A program made the position numbers and the translations under genes. Positions 20,572-37,298 of a stretch of DNA of 64,000 bases are shown here, piece after piece; within the stretch, counting starts at the first letter, position 1; every line of letters starts with the position of its first letter. The notes beneath the pieces are model-generated. The model did no database searches. It worked only from the letters and a program-made list of their open reading frames with translations, and was not told where the DNA came from. Source of the stretch: Pedobacter sp. PLR (GTDB lineage Bacteria; Bacteroidota; Bacteroidia; Sphingobacteriales; Sphingobacteriaceae); contig NZ_JAPIVQ010000009.1 of NCBI RefSeq assembly GCF_026239675.1, positions 186,001 through 250,000 of the forward strand, read 5' to 3'.

Positions 20572-21648
20572 ATGAGTTTTACTGCACAGTTTCCCGTACT
20601 AGCGAATTGCACCTATCTGAATACAGCAAGTTCAGGCATAATGTCGAGCTCCATTATGGAATGGAGAAAGTCGCATGATGAAGAGTTTTACCTACAAGGA
20701 AGTAACTTCCGCTTACAACAGCGGGAGTTTTTACAGGATGTCAGGGAACACGTTGCCAGATTCTTTCATAGCAAAGCAGAAAACACCTTTCTGGTACAGA
20801 ATTTATCCATTGGTTTTAACATCTTTTTAGATGGATTATCAGCTGACCATAAATTTCTACTGGTGACCAGCGATTATCCTTCCATAAATTACCCGGTAGA
20901 AAGCAGAGGATTTAGCTGTGATTATGCCCTGGCAAACGAACACCTTGAACAAAATATACTGGCCAAAATAGAGACTTTTAAACCATCAGTGCTGGCATTG
21001 AGTTTGGTTCAATATGCCAGTGGTATCAAGATAGACCTTAGTTTTATCAAAAAACTAAAAGAAAACTATCCGGAGCTGCTGATCGTTGGTGATGGCACTC
21101 AGTTTTGTGGGACTAACGCTTTTAACTTCGGGACATCAGGATTTGATGTACTCATCAGCAGCGGCTACAAATGGATGCTTGCCGGCTATGGGAACGGATT
21201 TGTGCTCTTAAAAGATCAGGTAAATCAGCATTTATATCAGAAACGAATCAATTACCCCTTGCCTACAGAACCTTTTTTAAAGGACCGGAGTTTATTATCG
21301 CTCTGCTTTGAGCCAGGGCATCTGGATACCTTAAATTTTGGTACGCTAAAGCAGTCCATTTTATTGTTTGAATCCTTAGGCACAGATTTTATTTCCAATA
21401 GACTGCAATCTATAGGCGAAATGGCCAGGAAAGCATTAACAGCACGTGGCTTACTCTCCAGCGCAGTTGTAGCACGCGGGGAACATGCTACGATTTTCAA
21501 TATACCGACCAGTACTGAGCTCAATAAGAGACTCCAGGAGGCCAATATCATTGTTACTCCCCGTGGCGATGGATTGAGGCTGTCCTTCCATTTTTACAAT
21601 ACAGTAGCGGATTTAGAAAAACTATTGAGCGTACTTGATCAGAAATAA
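20572..21648 (+). CDS. PLP-dependent class V aminotransferase / cysteine-desulfurase-like enzyme
   Basis: 358 residues of fold type I. The PLP lysine lies in I-S-S-G-Y-K-W-M-L-A-G-Y-G; the cofactor-binding aspartate is likely in V-G-D-G-T-Q-F-C-G-T. The N-terminus Y-L-N-T-A-S-S-G-I-M-S-S-S resembles the NifS/isopenicillin-N-epimerase-like subgroup, which includes desulfurases, selenocysteine lyases and kynureninase relatives. No catalytic-loop cysteine typical of NifS is obvious, so an aminotransferase or lyase role is more likely. Single gene, divergent from the GH95 enzyme. Confidence 0.85.
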   Translation: MSFTAQFPVLANCTYLNTASSGIMSSSIMEWRKSHDEEFYLQGSNFRLQQREFLQDVREHVARFFHSKAENTFLVQNLSIGFNIFLDGLSADHKFLLVTSDYPSINYPVESRGFSCDYALANEHLEQNILAKIETFKPSVLALSLVQYASGIKIDLSFIKKLKENYPELLIVGDGTQFCGTNAFNFGTSGFDVLISSGYKWMLAGYGNGFVLLKDQVNQHLYQKRINYPLPTEPFLKDRSLLSLCFEPGHLDTLNFGTLKQSILLFESLGTDFISNRLQSIGEMARKALTARGLLSSAVVARGEHATIFNIPTSTELNKRLQEANIIVTPRGDGLRLSFHFYNTVADLEKLLSVLDQK

Positions 21649-24264: not shown

Positions 24265-26241
24265 ATGAGATTAGGCTCCTACCCGGGGATTGAAAAATTG
24301 CGCTTCACTCATCTACAGCACTTGTTTGATGAGGAAAACAAAATGAACTTTAGTGTCATAATATCATTGGCTGAACTCCTATGTGAGGTCCCGATAGCTT
24401 TCATCGCAATTGAAGACGAAAACGGCAATTTAATAAAGACCAGCACTACCATTGCTGACCTTAAAGACTCCCGGACACTTCCCTTTCCTGACAACTTGCC
24501 TTTAGTCATACCTGATGTTACTCTTGATGACCGTTTTTCTAATCATCAGTTGTTAAAATCAGGCATCCGTTTTTATGCCGGTATCCCGATCCTGAATCCC
24601 GAAAACTATGCTGTGGCTTATCTGTGTATCATGGATAAAAGTCCGCGGGAGCTTAACAGCAAACAGCTCAATGGGCTGATATTACTGGCTCAGCAAGCTT
24701 TTGAAATTATCAGGGTTGAACTGGACAACCTGGAGCTTAAAGAGCTGGCCAATAACATAGTTACTCCTGCCCAGGAAATCGACACTATTTTTCACAATGC
24801 CATAGATGCAGTGATTGTGGTGGACGATAACGGGATCATCTCCCAATGGAATCCAAAGGCTGAAAACATCTTTGGCTGGCAAAAGGCAGAGGTTACCGGG
24901 CATTATTTCCATGAAGTAGCCCTTCCACCGGAGTATCAGGGACACTACCTTCAGCTATTGGAGAACTTTAAGTATAATTCCGCAGAAAACCACCCGAATA
25001 CCACCGTGGAAATTTCTGCCATTCGAAAAGACCAGACCACTTTTGATATCGCACTGAGCATTTCTCCGGCAACAATCCAGGGAAAGCATTTTTTCATCTG
25101 TTTTGTGAGTGACATCACCAATCGGAATCAAATTTCTCAGGAGCTGGATAAACAACAAAAGTTTTATGAAAACATATTAAACAAACTGCCTACAGATATT
25201 GCCGTTTTTGATGCCAATCATAAATACCTGTTTGTAAATCCAGGGGCAATCAGTGTTAAAGAATACCGTGACTTTATTATTGGTAAAGACGATTATGAGT
25301 ATGCGGCCTACCGCAACAGGGATACGGTTACCGCAGATTTACGAAGGGCACAATTTCTGGAAGCAAAAGAGAGCGGCACGCAAATCCGTTGGGAAGATAG
25401 TCTGAAGGGACCTGAGGGCAATACCATTACCCATTTACGCCGCATGTATCCTGTACACGATGAAAATGGGGAACTTTCTATGGTAATCGGCTTCGGTATT
25501 GACATTACAGACCGGAAAGTGATGGAAGAAAAACAGGCGGCACTGGTCCAACAATTGTCTTCACAAAACACACAGCTCATTGATTTTTGTAATATCGTAT
25601 CTCATAACCTAAGGGCTCCATTGGTGAATATGTCGATGCTCGTAGAGTTTATTGAAGACACCAACAATCCTGAAGAACAGAAAACCCTGATTTCTAAACT
25701 GAAACCAGTTATTGAAAACCTCCACACTACGTTTAATGAGCTGGTAGAATCCATACAAATTAAACAAGACCTGGAAATCAAATCGGAAAACATTCTCTTA
25801 ACAGACTGTATCCGCAGAACTTTTGAAGGGCTACAATCTGAGATTAATAAATCCGAAGCGATTATAGAAACCGATTTTGAGGATGCTCCATCGGTTTATT
25901 TTCCGGCTAAATACTTGTACAGCATTTTCCATAACCTGTTCAGTAACTGCCTGAAATACCAGAGTCCAAAAAGGAAACTTGTCATTAAGCTGGTCAGTAA
26001 AAAGATGGATGGAAAAATATTGTTGTCTTTTACGGACAACGGACTTGGTATTGACATGGACAAACATAAAGACAACTGTTTCAAGATTGGAAAGGTATTT
26101 CACCACCACCCAAATTCAAAAGGATTTGGCCTGTACATGACCAAAACCCAGGTAGAAGCCATGAAAGGCAAAATATGGGTAGAAAGTAAGATTGATGTTG
26201 GCTCTACCTTTTTTATTGAATTTACAAATCAAAAAGCATGA
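24265..26241 (+). CDS. GAF/PAS-containing sensor histidine kinase
   Basis: 658 residues, no membrane helix, so a soluble sensor. Order: GAF-like domain (about 15-150, with V-P-I-A-F-I-A-I-E-D and F-Y-A-G-I-P-I-L), PAS 1 (about 172-290, I-I-S-Q-W-N-P-K-A-E-N-I-F-G-W), PAS 2 with PAC-like end (about 300-425), then the HisKA-like helix containing His447 in I-V-S-H-N-L-R-A-P-L, and a HATPase domain with N-box N-L-F-S-N-C-L-K-Y, D-N-G-L-G-I and G-F-G-L-Y-M. It should autophosphorylate in response to a cytoplasmic signal and pass the phosphate to the adjacent response regulator, whose ATG overlaps its stop by 4 bp. Confidence 0.93.
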   Translation: MRLGSYPGIEKLRFTHLQHLFDEENKMNFSVIISLAELLCEVPIAFIAIEDENGNLIKTSTTIADLKDSRTLPFPDNLPLVIPDVTLDDRFSNHQLLKSGIRFYAGIPILNPENYAVAYLCIMDKSPRELNSKQLNGLILLAQQAFEIIRVELDNLELKELANNIVTPAQEIDTIFHNAIDAVIVVDDNGIISQWNPKAENIFGWQKAEVTGHYFHEVALPPEYQGHYLQLLENFKYNSAENHPNTTVEISAIRKDQTTFDIALSISPATIQGKHFFICFVSDITNRNQISQELDKQQKFYENILNKLPTDIAVFDANHKYLFVNPGAISVKEYRDFIIGKDDYEYAAYRNRDTVTADLRRAQFLEAKESGTQIRWEDSLKGPEGNTITHLRRMYPVHDENGELSMVIGFGIDITDRKVMEEKQAALVQQLSSQNTQLIDFCNIVSHNLRAPLVNMSMLVEFIEDTNNPEEQKTLISKLKPVIENLHTTFNELVESIQIKQDLEIKSENILLTDCIRRTFEGLQSEINKSEAIIETDFEDAPSVYFPAKYLYSIFHNLFSNCLKYQSPKRKLVIKLVSKKMDGKILLSFTDNGLGIDMDKHKDNCFKIGKVFHHHPNSKGFGLYMTKTQVEAMKGKIWVESKIDVGSTFFIEFTNQKA

Positions 26242-26639
26242 ATTCGTTAAAAAAAATAGCGCTCATAGATGACGATAGCACTTTTGTTTTCCTGACAAAA
26301 AGAATGATTAAGCAGGCAAATATATCGACACACATCGATGAATTTAATGATGGTCTGCAAGCACTTAATTTCCTGATAGCCAACCAAAACAACGAAGAAG
26401 TATTACCTGACGTGATATTCCTGGACCTCAGCATGCCTGTTATGGATGGCTGGGAGTTTTTAGAAGAATATACGGTTGTTGAACCAGGGATAAGAAAACG
26501 GATCATTTTGTATATCGTTTCTTCTTCCATTTCTCCTCATGACATTGAAAGATCCAGAAATTTCAGTGTGGTATCTGATTTTATCATTAAGCCATTGAAC
26601 AAAGAAAGATTTATCCAGATTATGGGAGATCTATCTTAA
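26238..26639 (+). CDS. Stand-alone response regulator receiver protein
   Basis: 133 residues of a CheY-like receiver domain and nothing else. The acidic pocket is D11-D12-D13, the phospho-acceptor Asp63 lies in I-F-L-D-L-S-M-P-V-M-D-G-W, and the conserved Lys is in F-I-I-K-P-L. It belongs to the Rcp1-like single-domain group often paired with PAS kinases. Start overlaps the kinase stop (ATGA), so translation is coupled. With no output domain it must act by protein contact or as a phosphorelay step. Confidence 0.93.
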   Translation: MNSLKKIALIDDDSTFVFLTKRMIKQANISTHIDEFNDGLQALNFLIANQNNEEVLPDVIFLDLSMPVMDGWEFLEEYTVVEPGIRKRIILYIVSSSISPHDIERSRNFSVVSDFIIKPLNKERFIQIMGDLS

Positions 26640-26672: not shown

Positions 26673-27842
26673 ATGTTCTCCTCTCCAACAGTTAACCTTG
26701 ATGTTCTAAAAAAAAGGGCTTACAATTTAAGGTGGGCAACCGTTCCAGACGGTGTCATTCCTTTAACAGCAGCCGATCCGGATTTCCCCTGTGCCCCGGA
26801 AATCTCAGAAGCAATTATCCGTTTTACAAAAGACCGCTACCTGTGCTATGGTCCGCCGGAAGGCTTGCCACAGTTCAAAAAAAGCATGGCTGGTTTCTTT
26901 CAGGAAAAACGAAATATTCCGGCAGACCCTGCCCTTCTTTTTCCGGTAGACAGTGCCGCGTTTGGCATCTGGTTAACCTGTAAAGCGTTTTTAACACCAC
27001 AGGATGAAGCGATTATCTTTGATCCGGTAGACTTTCTTTTCAGGTACTCCATAGAAGCTGTAGGTGCTACTGCCATTCCTTTTTCTATCCCTCCGGGTGA
27101 TGCAGCTGTGGATTTTGACAGACTGGAAAAGCTGATCAGCAAGAACACTAAAATGATCTGCATCTGCAATCCTTTAAATCCAACAGGAAAAGTTTTCAGT
27201 AAAGAAGAGCTACTTCGTTTTGGAGAAATCGCCTGTAGACATGACCTGATCATCTTATCGGATGAGATCTGGAGCGATATCATTTATGCGCCTCATGTTT
27301 TCACCAGTATCGCCTCCCTGAATGAAGAGATTCGCGACAGAACCATCACGATTACGGGATTCAGCAAATCTTATGGACTGGCAGGTTTAAGAATCGGCAC
27401 AGTGATGGCTTCTAATTCAGCGCACTACAGCCGGTTATTTGAAGCCTCGCTACACGGTTCTACTATCAATGGCGCCAATGTATTGTCGCAACTTGCAGCA
27501 ACAGCGGCATTAGACGAATCCGCCTATTATCTTGACGCGTTCAAAACACACCTGCACCAGATGCGGGAATTAGTTGTCAAAGAACTCAACAGCGTAGATG
27601 GCTTCCACTGCATTGCACCGGAAGGCTGTTACGTGGCTTTTGTTGACATCACCGGAACTCATAAATCCAGTTCAGACGTTCGGGATTTACTCTTTAATGA
27701 GGCAAAAGTTGCCGTGGTACCAGGTTTAAAACAATGGTTTGGGGAAGGTGCTGAAGGCTATATCCGCCTCAGCTTTGCGACCTCAGAAGGAATACTCACA
27801 GATGCGCTCTCCCGTATCAGGAACACCATAAAATCACTATGA
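26673..27842 (+). CDS. MalY/PatB-like pyridoxal-phosphate aminotransferase or C-S lyase
   Basis: 389 residues of fold-type-I class I/II. Visible are A-D-P-D-F-P-C-A-P near the start, Y-G-P-P-E-G-L-P, the Asn of N-P-L-N-P-T-G-K, the Asp/Tyr of L-S-D-E-I-W-S-D-I-I-Y, the PLP lysine in T-G-F-S-K-S-Y-G-L-A-G-L-R, and the Arg of I-R-L-S-F-A that binds the substrate carboxylate. The D-E-I-W-S-D element and size favour the MalY/PatB group, which cleaves cystathionine and related C-S bonds, but an ordinary aminotransferase is possible. It follows the response regulator by 33 bp and overlaps the next gene by 4 bp. Confidence 0.88.
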   Translation: MFSSPTVNLDVLKKRAYNLRWATVPDGVIPLTAADPDFPCAPEISEAIIRFTKDRYLCYGPPEGLPQFKKSMAGFFQEKRNIPADPALLFPVDSAAFGIWLTCKAFLTPQDEAIIFDPVDFLFRYSIEAVGATAIPFSIPPGDAAVDFDRLEKLISKNTKMICICNPLNPTGKVFSKEELLRFGEIACRHDLIILSDEIWSDIIYAPHVFTSIASLNEEIRDRTITITGFSKSYGLAGLRIGTVMASNSAHYSRLFEASLHGSTINGANVLSQLAATAALDESAYYLDAFKTHLHQMRELVVKELNSVDGFHCIAPEGCYVAFVDITGTHKSSSDVRDLLFNEAKVAVVPGLKQWFGEGAEGYIRLSFATSEGILTDALSRIRNTIKSL

Positions 27843-29776
27843 AAGTTGTCATAATTGGAGGAGGCATCGCCGGACTCACCCTTGGTATATTTTTGCGAAA
27901 ACAAAATATAGAATCTGTAATCAATGAAAGGCTGGTAAACATGCCGGAAAGAGGTCACGCTTTTTTAATGCACAGCGATGGACTCAGTAAACTGAAAGAA
28001 CTTAGTCCGGACGACAATACCGCAGTTCCGGGTAAAACAGTTGATGATTTCATCTTAAAAAGACCTTCAGGAAAGGAAATCAAGCATTTACACCTTGATT
28101 CCTGGAAATGTATCAAGCGTGGCGACCTGATCCGCTTTCTAAAGCGCTCCATCCCAAAGGACCTCCTTATTGAAGGCCGTGAATTCTCACATTTCATTTA
28201 CGAAAATGACAAAGTTGTTGCTGCTGCCTTTAAGAATGGGGACCTGGAATATGGCGACATTTTTGTGGGCGCGGATGGCGGAAATTCCAAAGTAAGACAG
28301 CAGATCATTGGCGACGTTACTTTTACCCCGGTAGCGGTGAAAGAAGTTGTAGGTGTTTCTTACAATGAAAAGCTTGGAAAAACACATGGCGAAAACTTCA
28401 CAAAGTTCCAGGACAACACCAAAGGCTTAGCTTTTGGCATGATTCCAACGGATAAAAACGAATTTGTATGGTTTGTACAGTTTGATGCGAATGCCAACAA
28501 AGTTGAGGATGATAGTCCGGAGGGAATTAAGACATTTTGTACGGAACTGCTAAAAGATTTCCCGGCAGAGGTTTCTGAGCTGTTGTCAACCAATGATTTT
28601 ACCAGCAGTTACATCTGGAATACGCGTGATTTTGACCTGCTACCCACTTTTCACCACCAAAACGTGGTTTTAATCGGTGATGCAGCACATCTTTCCCTGC
28701 CATTTACCAGTGCCGGTACAACCAATGCCATTGTGGATGCCAGAACACTGGTAGACGAATTGTTGCAACATGAAAATCATGAGGATGCTTTTGAGCAATA
28801 CTATGCGACAAGAGCGCCGCAAATAGAAAAGCATATCCAGTTGGGCAGAGAATTAAAACATGTCTTCCTGAATCCTACGGATCAGAATGATGATGATATT
28901 CCGGTTCCATTGATCGCGAATAAGGAACAACTGGATGAGGTAAGTGCTAATCTGCAAATTGAGGTGTTGTACTTTACCGACCCGATTTGTTCTACCTGCT
29001 GGACTATACAACCTTTATTGAGGAAACTTAAGCTGGAATATGGCAGTTACCTGAATATTAAATACTGTATGGGCGGAATGCTTCCTTCCTGGGGAGAATA
29101 TCCTAAAGGAAAAGTGAACGGTCCGACTGAAGTGGCAAAGCATTGGGATGAGGTTTGTGCCATTCATGAAATGCCTATCGATGGTGATTTATGGATTGAA
29201 GACCCTATGAATTCTTCTTATCCGCCTTCCATTGCATTTAAAGCCGCACAGATGCAGGACAATGACCTTGCTCCCCTTTTCTTAAGACGGATCAATGAGA
29301 TGGTTTTTGTAGAAAAGAAAAATATCATCAAATGGGAGTTTCTGGAAAAAGCAGCGTTAGAAGTAGGCCTGGATTCTGCCAGACTTTTAAGGGATTATGA
29401 AGGTCGGGCAAAAGAATTGTTTAAAGAAGACCTGAATACCGGCAAAACGCATGGGGTGACTAGTTTTCCTACCTTGATCTTTTCAGACCCCTCAAATGAC
29501 CATGTGACAATTAAAGGCCACCAGACCTATGACCATTTTGTAGACATCATTTTGCAGCGTCTGCCGCATGCGAAAAAGGCGGAGATAGATACCGATCCTA
29601 AAAACCTGTTTGGTCATTTCCCGACCATGGCCGATAAGGAATTCGCTTATTTGAGTGATATTTCTATGGAAGCAGCAGCTGTGAAACTGGAGGAGCTGTA
29701 TGATCAGGGTTTCCTGAAAAAAATGGAAAGTAAAAACGGTATCCTCTGGAAAAGCAATTACTTCGAGCTGGTGTAA
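27839..29776 (+). CDS. FAD-dependent monooxygenase fused to a DsbA/SpxH-like thioredoxin domain
   Basis: 645 residues in one uninterrupted frame. Residues 1-345 are a PHBH-type flavin monooxygenase: G-G-G-I-A-G-L dinucleotide fingerprint at the start, G-A-D-G-G-N-S near 144-150, and I-G-D-A-A-H at 279-284. Residues about 373-590 are a DsbA-fold module like SpxH/YjbH, with active-site Cys384-Ser-Thr-Cys387 in F-T-D-P-I-C-S-T-C-W and downstream segments S-S-Y-P-P-S-I-A-F-K-A-A. A short winged-helix-like tail (about 610-645) ends the protein. The two halves are normally separate proteins. ATG overlaps the stop of the PLP enzyme, so a joint role in sulfur or thiol metabolism is plausible but inferred. 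Confidence 0.88.
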   Translation: MKVVIIGGGIAGLTLGIFLRKQNIESVINERLVNMPERGHAFLMHSDGLSKLKELSPDDNTAVPGKTVDDFILKRPSGKEIKHLHLDSWKCIKRGDLIRFLKRSIPKDLLIEGREFSHFIYENDKVVAAAFKNGDLEYGDIFVGADGGNSKVRQQIIGDVTFTPVAVKEVVGVSYNEKLGKTHGENFTKFQDNTKGLAFGMIPTDKNEFVWFVQFDANANKVEDDSPEGIKTFCTELLKDFPAEVSELLSTNDFTSSYIWNTRDFDLLPTFHHQNVVLIGDAAHLSLPFTSAGTTNAIVDARTLVDELLQHENHEDAFEQYYATRAPQIEKHIQLGRELKHVFLNPTDQNDDDIPVPLIANKEQLDEVSANLQIEVLYFTDPICSTCWTIQPLLRKLKLEYGSYLNIKYCMGGMLPSWGEYPKGKVNGPTEVAKHWDEVCAIHEMPIDGDLWIEDPMNSSYPPSIAFKAAQMQDNDLAPLFLRRINEMVFVEKKNIIKWEFLEKAALEVGLDSARLLRDYEGRAKELFKEDLNTGKTHGVTSFPTLIFSDPSNDHVTIKGHQTYDHFVDIILQRLPHAKKAEIDTDPKNLFGHFPTMADKEFAYLSDISMEAAAVKLEELYDQGFLKKMESKNGILWKSNYFELV

Positions 29777-32750: not shown

Positions 32751-35700
32751 ATGTTTGAACAATTTATAAAACGACCGGTATTATCACTGGTTATTTCCCT
32801 TTTTATCACCCTCCTGGGTTTACTGGCGCTATTTACCTTGCCGGTTACCCAATTCCCGGACATCGTTCCGCCATCCGTCGTGGTAACGGCAAATTATACC
32901 GGTGCAAATGCCGAAGTGAGTACAAATGCCGTGGCTATTCCTCTGGAAAGGACCATTAATGGTGTTGCAGGCATGACTTACATGAGTTCCGTATCCACCA
33001 ATAACGGAACTACCCTGATCCAGGTTTTCTTTAAAGTAGGCACAGATCCTGACATTGCAGCGGTTAACGTGCAGAACAGGGTAACCACTGTGCTCGACGA
33101 ATTACCTGAAGAAGTAATCAAAGCCGGGGTTACAACCGAAAAAGAAGTGAACAGTATGCTGATGTATCTGAACATTTATAGTGACGATAAAACAGCAGAT
33201 GAGCGTTTTATCTACAACTTTACCGATATCAATATCCTAAAAGAATTGAAACGTATTGAAGGTGTTGGTTTTGCGCAGATCATGGGCTTAAGGGATTATG
33301 CGATGCGTGTATGGCTAAAACCAGACCGCCTGGCTGCCTACAACATCTCTTCCGATGATGTCATTGCCGCTCTAAGAAGGCAAAATGTGGAAGCTGCACC
33401 CGGACAAACGGGTATCGGTTCTGACAAATCGATCAATATGCAGCAATATGTATTGCGCTATCCGGGCAAGTTTTCGGACGCTGAGGAGTATAAAAACATT
33501 CCAATCCGCGCCAATGCAGATGGTTCTATTATCCGGATCAAAGACGTTGCAGATGTAGAATTTGGTTCCTTAGATTATGAGATGGTGTCTAAAACTGATG
33601 GCAGGCCTTCAGCCTCTATCATGCTGAAACAGCTGCCCGGCTCTAACGCACAGGAAGTTATTAAAAACGTAAAAGACCGCATGGCCGCCTTACAGGGGAA
33701 CTCTTTCCCTCCGGGAATGAAATACACCATGGGCTATGATGTATCCAGATTCCTTGATGCCTCAATTTCAAGCGTATTGATCACTTTACTTGAAGCCTTT
33801 ATTCTCGTATTTATTGTGGTATTTATCTTCTTACAGGACTTCCGTTCTACCTTAATTCCGGCGCTTGCCGTACCGGTTTGTTTAATTGGCGCCTTGTTTT
33901 TTATGCAGATGCTGGGCTTCTCCATCAACTTACTGACCTTGTTTGCACTCGTGCTTGCGATAGGTATTGTGGTCGATAATGCCATTGTAGTGGTGGAGGC
34001 AGTCTACTCTAAAATGGAGGAAGAACACCTTCAACCCATGGAAGCAACCATCGCTGCGATGAAAGAAGTTGGTAAGCCGGTTGTGGCAATCACCCTGGTG
34101 ATGTCGGCCGTGTTTATTCCGGTAGCTTTCCTTTCTGGTCCCGTAGGTATTTTCTATCGCCAGTTCTCCTTAACACTGGCTTCGGCGATTATCATTTCCG
34201 GAATCAATGCCTTGACCTTAACACCGGCGCTATGTGCCATCATTCTTCGTTCTCCGCATGATAAACCTGAGGCCAAAGGCTGGATGTCCAGATTTTTTGC
34301 TGGCTTTAACAGGGTTTACAACAGAATGGCGGGCGGTTATAAAGGATTACTGACCAGAATTGCAGGAAGAAGAATTCTGACATTCGGACTGTTGATCGCT
34401 TTCTTTATCGCCACCTGGGGCATGAGCAGTATTTTGCCTTCCGGTTTTATCCCGACTGAAGATCAGGGGATGATTTACGTGAACGTAACCACGCCTCCCG
34501 GAGCTACAGTTGACAGAACCGAAAGCGTATTGAATGAAATTGATGCCATCAGCAGAAAGATGCAGGCGGTAGAAACGGTTTCTACCCTTGCCGGTTACAG
34601 TTTAGTAAACGAGGTTTCCGGTGCGTCTTACGGGATGGGCATGATCAATCTCGTGGCCTGGAAAGACAGAGAAGAATCGGTAACCGACATGATCGAAAAG
34701 CTTAAAAAGGCTACTTCACACATCATGGATGCGGATATTGAGTTCTTCCCTCCGCCTACCGTGCCTGGTTTCGGTAACTCTTCAGGTTTTGAATTGCGCC
34801 TTTTAGATAAAACCGGTGCTGACGACCTGAACCGGACTTCCGAAGTGATGAAGAAGTTTATTGAGGATCTAAAGGCCACTCCTGAAATTGGTAATGTGTT
34901 TACCACTTTCGACGTGAGCTTCCCGCAATATCTGATCAAAGTAGATCATGATCTGGCAGCGAAAAAAGGCATTAGCGTGGAGAATGCGATGAACACTTTG
35001 CAGACTTTAATGGGTAGTTATTATGCCACCAACTTCATCCGATACGGACAAATGTACAAGGTGATGGTGCAGGCAGGCCCTAATTACCGCGAAAAACCGG
35101 AAGATGTATTGAACCTTTTCATCAAGAATGATCAGGGAGAAATGATGCCATTCTCTACATTCATCAATATGGAGCGCGTTTATGGTCCGGAGCAGATCAC
35201 CCGTTACAATATGTTCTCTTCGGCGATGCTGAATGGGGATGCCACCGCAGGTTTCAGTAGCGGACAGGCGATTGATGCAGTAGAAGCCGTAGCGAAAAAG
35301 CTTCCGGCAGGTTATGAAATTGAATGGTCTGGTATGACGCGTGAGCAGATTCTTTCCGGAAATCAGGCTTTATACATCTTTGCATTATGTTTACTGTTTG
35401 TATACCTGATCCTTGCTGCCCAGTATGAAAGCTTCCTTTTACCATTGCCAGTATTGTTGTCTTTACCGGCAGGTATTTTCGGGGCCTTCCTGTTCTTATG
35501 GATGTTTGGACTGGAAAACAATATTTATGCGCAGGTCGCATTGGTTATGCTCATCGGTTTACTCGGGAAAAACGCGATTCTGATCGTAGAGTACGCTATT
35601 ATTAAACAAGAACAAGGTATGAGTTTCTTAGATGCTGCAATTGAGGGTTCTGTTGCCCGTTTGCGTCCGATCTTGATGACCTCTTTTGCTTTTGCAGCAG

Positions 35701-37298
35701 GATTGGTTCCTTTAATGCTGGCTACTGGTGCCGGTGCCCTTGGAAATCGCTCTATCGGAACAGCCGCTGTAGGCGGGATGATCATTGGTACGGTGGTCGG
35801 CGTAATCGTGATTCCAGGTCTCTATGTGCTCTTCTCATCATTGATGAAGAAGAAAGTAACTGCTAGCGCTAAGGTTATTGTAGCGATTACCTCGGTGATG
35901 TTGATCAGCAGCTGCTCCATGAAGAAAGATATTCCTGTTTATGAGCACCGTAGTCTGCCGGAAAGCTTCCAGAAAAGTACGGATACGAACACTGTAGCCA
36001 ATACTACCTGGAAGGAATTCTTTAAGGATGAGCAGTTGATTGCACTAATTGAAACTGCCCTTGCCAACAATACAGATATGAAGCAAACTTTGCATCATAT
36101 TGAGATCGCGAAGGCAAACTTAAGAATGCGAAAAGGTGCAGCTTTACCTAATATAGACCTTGCAATTGAAGGAGGACTAAGGAGATACGGTTTCTATACC
36201 GCTGATGGAATTGGTAATTACGACACCAATTTCTCTCCCAATCTGAAACCAGGTGAGCAGGTTCCCAACCCGCTTCCCGACTATTTTGTGGGGATCAGGA
36301 CTTCATGGGAACTGGATTTATGGGGAAAGCTGAAAAACAAAAAGCAGGCCGCATTGAACAAGTTCATGGCTTCCTATGAGGGACAGAAACTGGTGCAGAC
36401 AGAGTTGATCAGTAATGTATCCGCAGCCTATTTCGAATTGCTGACCCTGGATGAGGAGCTTAAGATTTTAAGCAGAAACATCCAGCTTCAACAGAATGGA
36501 TTAAAGTTGATTCAGGTGCAAAAAGAAGCGGGTGTGGCTACCGAATTAGGCGTACAGCAATTCAAAGCGGTGCTTGCCAATTCCAAAGCTAAAGAGCAGG
36601 AAGTATTACAACAGGTTAGTCTGATGCAGCACCACCTGAACTTCCTTACTGGTAGATTTGAATCTACTATTACATTAAAGGAGAATGGATTAGAAGAATT
36701 CACTTCTACCAGTACTTTAGCAGAAGGCACACCTTTACAGATGATTGCTTTGAGGCCGGACATTAGACAAGCCGGACTGGAATTGATCGCTTCGCAGAAA
36801 GAAACGAAGGCCGCAAGTGCAGCATTCTTACCTGCAATTGTGTTAGCGCCGCATATTGGCTTGCAATCTTTTGACCTGAGTAAATTGCTACAACCGCAAA
36901 CGGCATTGGCTTATGGATTGATAGGTGGCTTAACTGCTCCTATTTTCAACCAGCACCGCATACGCGCAGAATACGAGAGTTATAAAGCAAGTTACGGGAT
37001 AGCATTTCAAAATTATGAGAAGATCGTTCTGAAGGCTTACAATGAGGTTCAGGACGCGGTAAAATCTCAAGCCTTCATTAAGGCGAAAAGAGGTTACATC
37101 TCTGAGGAAGTGAAAGCGCTGAATGCTTCCGTTAAAGCAGCAAACGCCTTGTTTTTAGCTGGAAGGGTAACCTATCTGGATATCATTACCACGCAAAGGA
37201 ATGTTTTGGATGCGGAACTTAATGAGGTTCAGGCGAAGAAACAGCAGGTGCTGAACCAGATTTCTATTTACAAAGCCTTAGGTGGCGGCTGGAAATAA
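32751..37298 (+). CDS. RND multidrug efflux pump fused to TolC-family outer-membrane lipoprotein
   Basis: 1515 residues in one frame. Residues 1 to about 1030 are a complete HAE1/AcrB-type proton-driven pump, with 12 helices, G-I-V-V-D-N-A-I-V-V-V-E in helix 4 and the G-N-x-S-I-G-T end motif. Residues 1055-1515 are a NodT/OprM-type outer-membrane factor (W-K-E-F-F-K-D-E-Q-L-I-A-L-I-E-T-A-L, later W-E-L-D-L-W-G-K-L). The join, residues 1032-1055, is a complete lipoprotein signal: M-K-K-K, a hydrophobic core, then L-I-S-S-C with Cys1055. The second half could be released by signal peptidase II or made from an internal start at Met1032 (35844). Substrates are unknown; the adaptor gene is directly upstream. 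Confidence 0.92.
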   Translation: MFEQFIKRPVLSLVISLFITLLGLLALFTLPVTQFPDIVPPSVVVTANYTGANAEVSTNAVAIPLERTINGVAGMTYMSSVSTNNGTTLIQVFFKVGTDPDIAAVNVQNRVTTVLDELPEEVIKAGVTTEKEVNSMLMYLNIYSDDKTADERFIYNFTDINILKELKRIEGVGFAQIMGLRDYAMRVWLKPDRLAAYNISSDDVIAALRRQNVEAAPGQTGIGSDKSINMQQYVLRYPGKFSDAEEYKNIPIRANADGSIIRIKDVADVEFGSLDYEMVSKTDGRPSASIMLKQLPGSNAQEVIKNVKDRMAALQGNSFPPGMKYTMGYDVSRFLDASISSVLITLLEAFILVFIVVFIFLQDFRSTLIPALAVPVCLIGALFFMQMLGFSINLLTLFALVLAIGIVVDNAIVVVEAVYSKMEEEHLQPMEATIAAMKEVGKPVVAITLVMSAVFIPVAFLSGPVGIFYRQFSLTLASAIIISGINALTLTPALCAIILRSPHDKPEAKGWMSRFFAGFNRVYNRMAGGYKGLLTRIAGRRILTFGLLIAFFIATWGMSSILPSGFIPTEDQGMIYVNVTTPPGATVDRTESVLNEIDAISRKMQAVETVSTLAGYSLVNEVSGASYGMGMINLVAWKDREESVTDMIEKLKKATSHIMDADIEFFPPPTVPGFGNSSGFELRLLDKTGADDLNRTSEVMKKFIEDLKATPEIGNVFTTFDVSFPQYLIKVDHDLAAKKGISVENAMNTLQTLMGSYYATNFIRYGQMYKVMVQAGPNYREKPEDVLNLFIKNDQGEMMPFSTFINMERVYGPEQITRYNMFSSAMLNGDATAGFSSGQAIDAVEAVAKKLPAGYEIEWSGMTREQILSGNQALYIFALCLLFVYLILAAQYESFLLPLPVLLSLPAGIFGAFLFLWMFGLENNIYAQVALVMLIGLLGKNAILIVEYAIIKQEQGMSFLDAAIEGSVARLRPILMTSFAFAAGLVPLMLATGAGALGNRSIGTAAVGGMIIGTVVGVIVIPGLYVLFSSLMKKKVTASAKVIVAITSVMLISSCSMKKDIPVYEHRSLPESFQKSTDTNTVANTTWKEFFKDEQLIALIETALANNTDMKQTLHHIEIAKANLRMRKGAALPNIDLAIEGGLRRYGFYTADGIGNYDTNFSPNLKPGEQVPNPLPDYFVGIRTSWELDLWGKLKNKKQAALNKFMASYEGQKLVQTELISNVSAAYFELLTLDEELKILSRNIQLQQNGLKLIQVQKEAGVATELGVQQFKAVLANSKAKEQEVLQQVSLMQHHLNFLTGRFESTITLKENGLEEFTSTSTLAEGTPLQMIALRPDIRQAGLELIASQKETKAASAAFLPAIVLAPHIGLQSFDLSKLLQPQTALAYGLIGGLTAPIFNQHRIRAEYESYKASYGIAFQNYEKIVLKAYNEVQDAVKSQAFIKAKRGYISEEVKALNASVKAANALFLAGRVTYLDIITTQRNVLDAELNEVQAKKQQVLNQISIYKALGGGWK

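Follow-up and report, generated by a model that had tools for sequence, protein, structure and literature searches.

In a 64,000-nucleotide stretch of the genome of the soil bacterium Pedobacter sp. PLR (contig NZ_JAPIVQ010000009.1, positions 186,001–250,000; hereafter the window), a single open reading frame (ORF) at 27839–29776 on the forward strand encodes a class A (PHBH/HpxO-type) flavin adenine dinucleotide (FAD) monooxygenase and a complete SpxH/YjbH-type protein in one chain. The fusion gene stands fourth in a small cassette with a patchy distribution among Bacteroidota, after the genes for a PAS histidine kinase, a lone receiver and a pyridoxal 5′-phosphate (PLP) enzyme. The PLP enzyme and the monooxygenase form an old two-gene pair. 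Pedobacter and several other lineages have a dedicated kinase and receiver ahead of this pair, and in one ancestor of the monooxygenase an entire SpxH/YjbH-type protein was added to the C-terminus, to be lost again at least twice. Taken as a whole, the cassette is in our judgement somewhat better than evenly likely to be a pathway pair under kinase–receiver regulation, equipped with an accessory SpxH thiol module. Passages of PMC4515095 and PMC3546652 already describe class A monooxygenases that end in a thioredoxin-like domain, and SpxH itself is known; what appears to be new is a monooxygenase joined to SpxH with an intact CXXC motif and winged helix, and the kinase–receiver–PLP enzyme–monooxygenase cassette, neither of which was found in searches of the open PMC literature.

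The ORF encodes 645 amino acids with no internal stop. Pfam places FAD_binding_3 (PF01494) on residues 2–333 (79.7 bits against a cut-off of 22), within a monooxygenase half of residues 1–345 (27839–28873), and Thioredoxin_5 on residues 378–568 (157.1 bits against 27); DSBA (PF01323) reaches 20.2 bits, below its gathering cut-off of 25.6, and marks a related fold only. Residues 370–638 align to the Geobacillus YjbH structure 6ghb (phmmer, E 1.5e-40), so that the second half corresponds to a whole YjbH-like protein. An AlphaFold2 model built on 49 sequences (predicted local distance difference test, pLDDT, 87.4; predicted template modelling score, pTM, 0.80) has its lowest confidence at residues 361–369, within a linker (residues 346–372, 28874–28954; pairwise identity 0.38) that is also the region where bare monooxygenases stop. 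Foldseek matched this model to YjbH 6ghb at a template modelling score (TM-score) of 0.91 by target and to HpxO at 0.82, and VIA-align superposed the monooxygenase half on HpxO 3rp7 with Z 39.4 and a root-mean-square deviation (rmsd) of 2.3 over 349 aligned residues; the VIA-align rows cover almost exclusively residues 1–362, and the SpxH half is assigned from Foldseek and sequence.

The SpxH half comprises a DsbA-fold domain with a helical insertion (residues 373–580, 28955–29578), the redox motif Cys384-Ser-Thr-Cys387 (28988–28999) and a YjbH-like C-terminal winged helix (residues 585–640, 29591–29758), all on the forward strand. The last is identified from the helix–strand–helix–helix–strand–strand order of the model, the extent of the 6ghb alignment to residue 638 and the YjbH architecture given in a passage of PMC7253607. 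The initial annotation, made from the letters of the window, had read a PHBH-type monooxygenase and a SpxH/YjbH-like domain with this cysteine pair in one chain, and this reading is confirmed. It had also placed the thiol domain in the cytosol for want of a signal peptide; the protein is strongly hydrophobic in one stretch only, residues 1–19 (mean hydropathy 1.98), which form the FAD-binding Rossmann motif MKVVIIGGGIAGL, supporting a probable cytosolic location. Two neighbouring genes misread as one are excluded by the single stop-free frame found here and in 20 further full-length loci.

Alignments and trees covered 24 of 26 distinct fusion loci, leaving out a near copy (L023) and a contig-cut locus (L042). 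Cys384-Ser-(Thr/Asn)-Cys387 is invariant in all 24, and the cysteine pair also in all ten aligned standalone SpxH proteins; at residue 391 the fusions carry Q, against E in the standalone Bacteroidota relatives. The flavin motifs G7/G9/G12, D146-G147 and G280-D281 are equally invariant in the fusions, and the GxGxxG, DG and GD motifs extend to all 12 bare monooxygenases. Cys91 of the monooxygenase half (28109–28111) is found in 36 of 36 cassette monooxygenases and is absent from three outgroup proteins. Identity among the retained fusions is higher in the SpxH half than in the monooxygenase half (0.66 against 0.58), which excludes a vestigial thiol half; judged from these alignments, with the cysteine pair kept in 24 of 24, the SpxH half is not decaying where it is retained.

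In HbpA, phenol hydroxylase, RebC and RdmE, too, a monooxygenase of the FAD_binding_3 type shares one chain with a thioredoxin-fold domain that follows it. The Pedobacter fusion differs from them in that its added part is a complete SpxH/YjbH protein, which includes a helical insertion, a winged helix and an invariant CXXC; this part was separately acquired and is dispensable. The third domain of HbpA-type monooxygenases is not known to carry a CXXC motif. In HbpA this C-terminal thioredoxin-fold domain (D3) spans residues 428–585, according to a passage of PMC4515095, and an excerpt of PMC3546652 describes the function of the third domain in class A monooxygenases with a thioredoxin-like C-terminus as not known.

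The genetic setting of the fusion recurs well outside the source genome. Among 99 related genomes, five (the source genome included) hold the full fusion, five the monooxygenase half only (51–53% identity) and ten the SpxH half only; among 395 phylum-wide genomes 33 gave any match, namely two fusions (again with the source genome), 22 cases of the SpxH half or part of it only and nine of a distant monooxygenase only. A scan of named genomes yielded 21 loci, all but one full-length, spread over Pedobacter, Flavobacterium, Chitinophagaceae and unclassified Bacteroidota. When ORFs of the window and these 21 loci were clustered, the order was kinase, receiver, PLP enzyme, fusion wherever visible: in 19 of 22 loci the PLP gene immediately precedes the fusion, kinase and receiver are present in 15 of 22, and other flanking genes are common to close relatives only. 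Three of the seven loci without kinase and receiver are cut by contig ends (L027, L032, L042), and another contig of the L042 genome shows a kinase, a receiver and a PLP gene, together with the first part of a monooxygenase gene; the other four (L038–L041) are without them in the available DNA. No downstream family is common across the loci, and the genes scanned there (outer-membrane protein, TonB receptor, M16 peptidase, hybrid kinases and others) led us to reject a conserved downstream partner. A plasmid-carried fusion was likewise rejected, as none of seven PLSDB records matched by tblastn holds the whole protein.

In the window the PLP gene and the start of the fusion overlap by four bases (ATGA). 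Of 39 locus records, in which six genomes appear twice, 29 have a four-base overlap of PLP and monooxygenase genes. Within Pedobacter the PLP gene occurs in 21 of 145 genomes (69–100% identity, with nothing else at E ≤ 1e-60), and in all 21 the order is kinase, receiver, PLP enzyme, monooxygenase; the SpxH half is present in nine of these cassettes and absent from 12, which carry a bare monooxygenase. The overlap and linkage with the PLP enzyme, and the PAS kinase and response regulator at the operon start, were thus rightly picked out from one genome, and the link of the fusion to all three is supported far beyond it. A comparison of distances across 28 loci (six duplicates removed; Spearman 0.43–0.73) does not separate co-inheritance from common ancestry and was not used as evidence.

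Compared with ten standalone SpxH proteins, the 24 fused SpxH halves group in a single clade (100/100), a single origin that is measured against the ten from the 99-genome set and not against further phylum-wide ones. In the monooxygenase tree, where the outgroup row L148 has a long branch, bare proteins are nested within fusions in two places (L118 and a clade of 11), for which one fusion event and at least two losses of the SpxH half are the simplest account. The six bare monooxygenases listed stop just past the linker motif, and no SpxH-coding remnant was found downstream in the DNA of 12 loci (one unrelated weak match, E 0.30, in L123), so that frameshifted fusions were rejected as an explanation. 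The initial annotation had the thioredoxin domain resolve a disulfide or sulfenate and had named separate, unlinked halves as a refutation of its own proposal. An integral catalytic role of this domain is not supported, and the refuting case occurs: the monooxygenase has no SpxH half in 12 of 21 Pedobacter cassettes, whose operon is otherwise the same, and no SpxH homologue at E ≤ 1e-5 was found in 11 of the 12 genomes concerned, the remaining one (G525) having a homologue on a different contig. With tail-less relatives that keep the cassette, the SpxH tail is an optional add-on rather than core chemistry. No genome with both a fusion and a standalone SpxH was found in the 99- and 395-genome sets, a sample too small to mean anything, and genome G505 holds both.

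A diverged version of the enzyme pair was found at L146, L147, L148 and the contig-cut L150, where a monooxygenase 28–36% identical to that of the cassette adjoins a PLP enzyme 45–49% identical to its counterpart, in reverse gene order and with no kinase. Two of these four loci belong to the genomes of the fusion loci L040 and L039. The occurrence of this kinase-free pair in further families indicates that PLP enzyme and monooxygenase are the old core.

The PLP enzyme itself (26673–27842, forward strand) belongs to fold-type I and is PatB/aminotransferase-like (Aminotran_1_2, 167 bits, Pfam). The initial annotation had called it MalY/PatB-like and had proposed that it releases or handles the sulfur of a substrate oxidized by its partner. 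TIGR04350 PatB is the best NCBIfam match and is matched by 19 of 19 members of the enzyme family, and the best structural match of the model is the Bacillus subtilis carbon–sulfur (C–S) lyase 6qp3 (Z 47.7, rmsd 1.9, 377 aligned residues). The PatB score of 217 bits is, however, far below the curated cut-off of 340, and each of the 25 NCBIfam models among the matches listed likewise scores below its own curated cut-off; the aminotransferase 1gd9 ties structurally (Z 47.1), and the aminotransferases 1dju and 1gd9 head the profile search. The enzyme shares its fold and PLP-binding residues with PatB/MalY C–S lyases and fold-type I aminotransferases alike, retaining Arg240, Asp197, Asn169, Arg365 and Lys232 (27366–27368, invariant in 19 of 19), which from knowledge of fold-type I enzymes is presumably the Schiff-base lysine. 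It departs from both groups at Asp120 (27030–27032, also invariant in 19 of 19), where five listed PDB relatives carry the aromatics F, F, Y, W and W, and which from general knowledge of the fold we take to be the PLP-stacking position.

These resemblances speak for a sulfur pathway, in which a PatB/MalY-type C–S lyase and the monooxygenase would act on a sulfur-bearing or aromatic substrate and the cysteine pair would resolve a disulfide or sulfenate in the same cycle; PatB together with a flavoenzyme also has a precedent among the tropodithietic acid genes, as a passage of PMC8283759 describes. We consider such a pathway unlikely, given the missed cut-off, the aminotransferase tie and Asp120 in place of an aromatic, to which must be added that 12 of 21 cassettes lost the thiol half while keeping the rest and that a sulfur partner would be expected to recur beside the cassette, which none of the flanking gene families does. 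Release or handling of substrate sulfur by the PLP enzyme is accordingly not supported.

For the monooxygenase half, the closest solved structures are HpxO urate hydroxylase and relatives of the PHBH type, with which it shares its FAD motifs; it is only 18% identical to HpxO, and NF033623 scores 103 bits against a cut-off of 500. Its best PDB sequence match is Tet(51) (E 1.6e-17), which, with the patchy occurrence of the cassette in 21 of 145 Pedobacter genomes, would suit a xenobiotic- or antibiotic-modifying function: a tetracycline-destructase-like oxygenase under cytosolic sensor control, its thiol half protecting against the oxidized product. We think this very improbable, since NF033476 tet_destruct reaches just 71 bits against a curated cut-off of 550, HpxO and other metabolic hydroxylases outrank the destructases structurally, and the cassette has no recurrent transporter or resistance gene. 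A defence system was also rejected, with zero anti-phage families matched in PADLOC (E ≤ 0.001) for each of the four cassette proteins. Among other flavoenzyme fusions, MICAL is a eukaryotic family. Its members likewise join an FAD monooxygenase-like domain to protein-interaction modules (passage of PMC3645671), modules that differ from those of the Pedobacter fusion, for which nothing here suggests a protein substrate.

Upstream on the same strand, the first gene (24265–26241) encodes a GAF–PAS–PAS_4 histidine kinase (PAS, PAS_4, HATPase_c and GAF in Pfam), and the second (26238–26639), overlapping it, a lone receiver-domain response regulator of 133 amino acids with no output domain (Response_reg, 51.7 bits), which is syntenic. 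A kinase orthologue is found at 64–66% identity in both other cassette genomes tested, whereas in each of 20 cassette-free genomes of the genus the best match is no higher than 36%; by these sequence comparisons the kinase is dedicated to the cassette. Its most hydrophobic 19-residue window (mean 2.29, residue 31) falls inside the GAF-like region, for which reason we treat it, with some reserve, as probably cytosolic. Conservation is 0.69 in PAS_4, 0.71 and 0.62 in the kinase core and 0.29 and 0.42 in the outer sensor domains. That PAS_4 is about as conserved as the kinase core, and that the kinase follows the cassette, favours a self-contained signalling circuit in which the small molecule made by the pair would be read inside the cell by PAS_4, the domain adjoining the core of their own kinase, and the SpxH half would serve as a redox-gated adaptor to thiol stress. 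We give this little probability: in a control kinase from five of the same loci the sensor is conserved too (0.69 against 0.90 and 0.74), so that the excess in PAS_4 is modest and says little alone. Cassettes of the clade whose monooxygenases are bare usually have a gene for a LuxR-type response regulator behind them (L044:8825–9427 and equivalents), and it may supply the missing DNA-binding output there.

The SpxH half has the same three-part architecture as YjbH/SpxH, the Firmicutes ClpXP adaptor of Spx (6ghb), with the CXXC present in both; the Pedobacter protein differs in being fused to a monooxygenase and in belonging to a genome with no detected CXXC-type Spx. Spx is known to carry a CXXC motif. 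In the source genome the one PF03960 (ArsC/Spx-family) protein found, L060, has a single cysteine at that position (PNCNTVKK), and an Spx client with CXXC was not found there. A passage of PMC7253607 describes YjbH as a thioredoxin domain with a helical insertion and a C-terminal winged helix. This complete architecture, and a standalone homologue of 50% identity annotated 'ClpXP adapter SpxH family protein', speak for an adaptor acting in cis or trans, which would deliver a client or the fusion itself to ClpXP with the flavin half or the cysteine pair as redox gate. The single-cysteine L060 as sole family member found counts against it, and we rate such an adaptor as improbable.

The explanation that we prefer is a pathway pair with an accessory thiol module. 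The PLP enzyme and monooxygenase would act in consecutive reactions on a single small molecule, either amino-acid-derived or aromatic/enolic, the monooxygenase by predicted chemistry with NAD(P)H, O2 and a C4a-hydroperoxyflavin. Kinase and receiver would respond to this compound or to stress arising from it, the receiver probably by protein contact, as it has no DNA-binding domain. The SpxH half would not make product; its cysteine pair and winged helix would form an accessory thiol module that most likely handles disulfides or quinone/electrophile adducts near the oxygenase, or docks a client protein. Proteins of the HxlR family, HypR and YodB among them, are sensors of disulfide and quinone stress. 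An HxlR-family regulator is adjacent to standalone Bacteroidota SpxH genes in five of ten loci (L048, L053, L054, L055, L057), four of the five being divergent, and lies two genes away in one more (L050). A stress role for the SpxH half is suggested by these regulators, by the retained cysteine pair and by the requirement of the YjbH CXXC for function in Listeria, reported in a passage of PMC7253607. The same paper states that thioredoxin activity of SpxH/YjbH had yet to be demonstrated. Electron transfer from YjbH to a neighbouring redox protein has been suggested for YjbI, in work that itself judged the point inconclusive (PMC9536834, in excerpt). Some standalone Bacteroidota SpxH proteins start with a lipoprotein-like signal, and most of the standalone proteins have an N-terminal NPLLC(D/N)..G.C motif.

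Several observations weigh against this explanation. In B. subtilis and S. aureus, degradation of Spx does not require the cysteines of YjbH (passage of PMC7253607). Genome G244, in which a separate contig carries a standalone SpxH, holds a 60%-identical PLP gene (L145:7004–8176) among unrelated genes with no adjoining monooxygenase, so that the pair is not obligatory. Loci L039 and L040 have no local PLP gene, their genomes carrying a separate diverged monooxygenase–PLP pair, and L042 is contig-cut. Neither kinase nor receiver stands beside the pair at L038, L041, L058 and L149, and no kinase orthologue was found in those genomes (best match 38%). The order of the PLP and monooxygenase steps is moreover a guess.

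Elsewhere in the window, a 1,515-residue ORF at 32751–37298 on the forward strand encodes an AcrB-type RND permease (residues 1–1028) followed in frame by an OEP outer membrane factor from residue 1099; the gene for an HlyD-type adaptor lies just before it. At 20572–21648, a class V aminotransferase-like gene, resembling cysteine desulfurase/selenocysteine lyase with scores below cut-offs, is syntenic in the closest Pedobacter relatives only.

The fusion connects class A flavin oxygenases, SpxH/YjbH thiol adaptors and the lone-receiver two-component systems of Bacteroidota, which are usually studied apart. That a single genus contains both kinds of cassette, some carrying the SpxH half and others not, amounts to a ready-made experiment on the effect of the SpxH domain on the enzyme.

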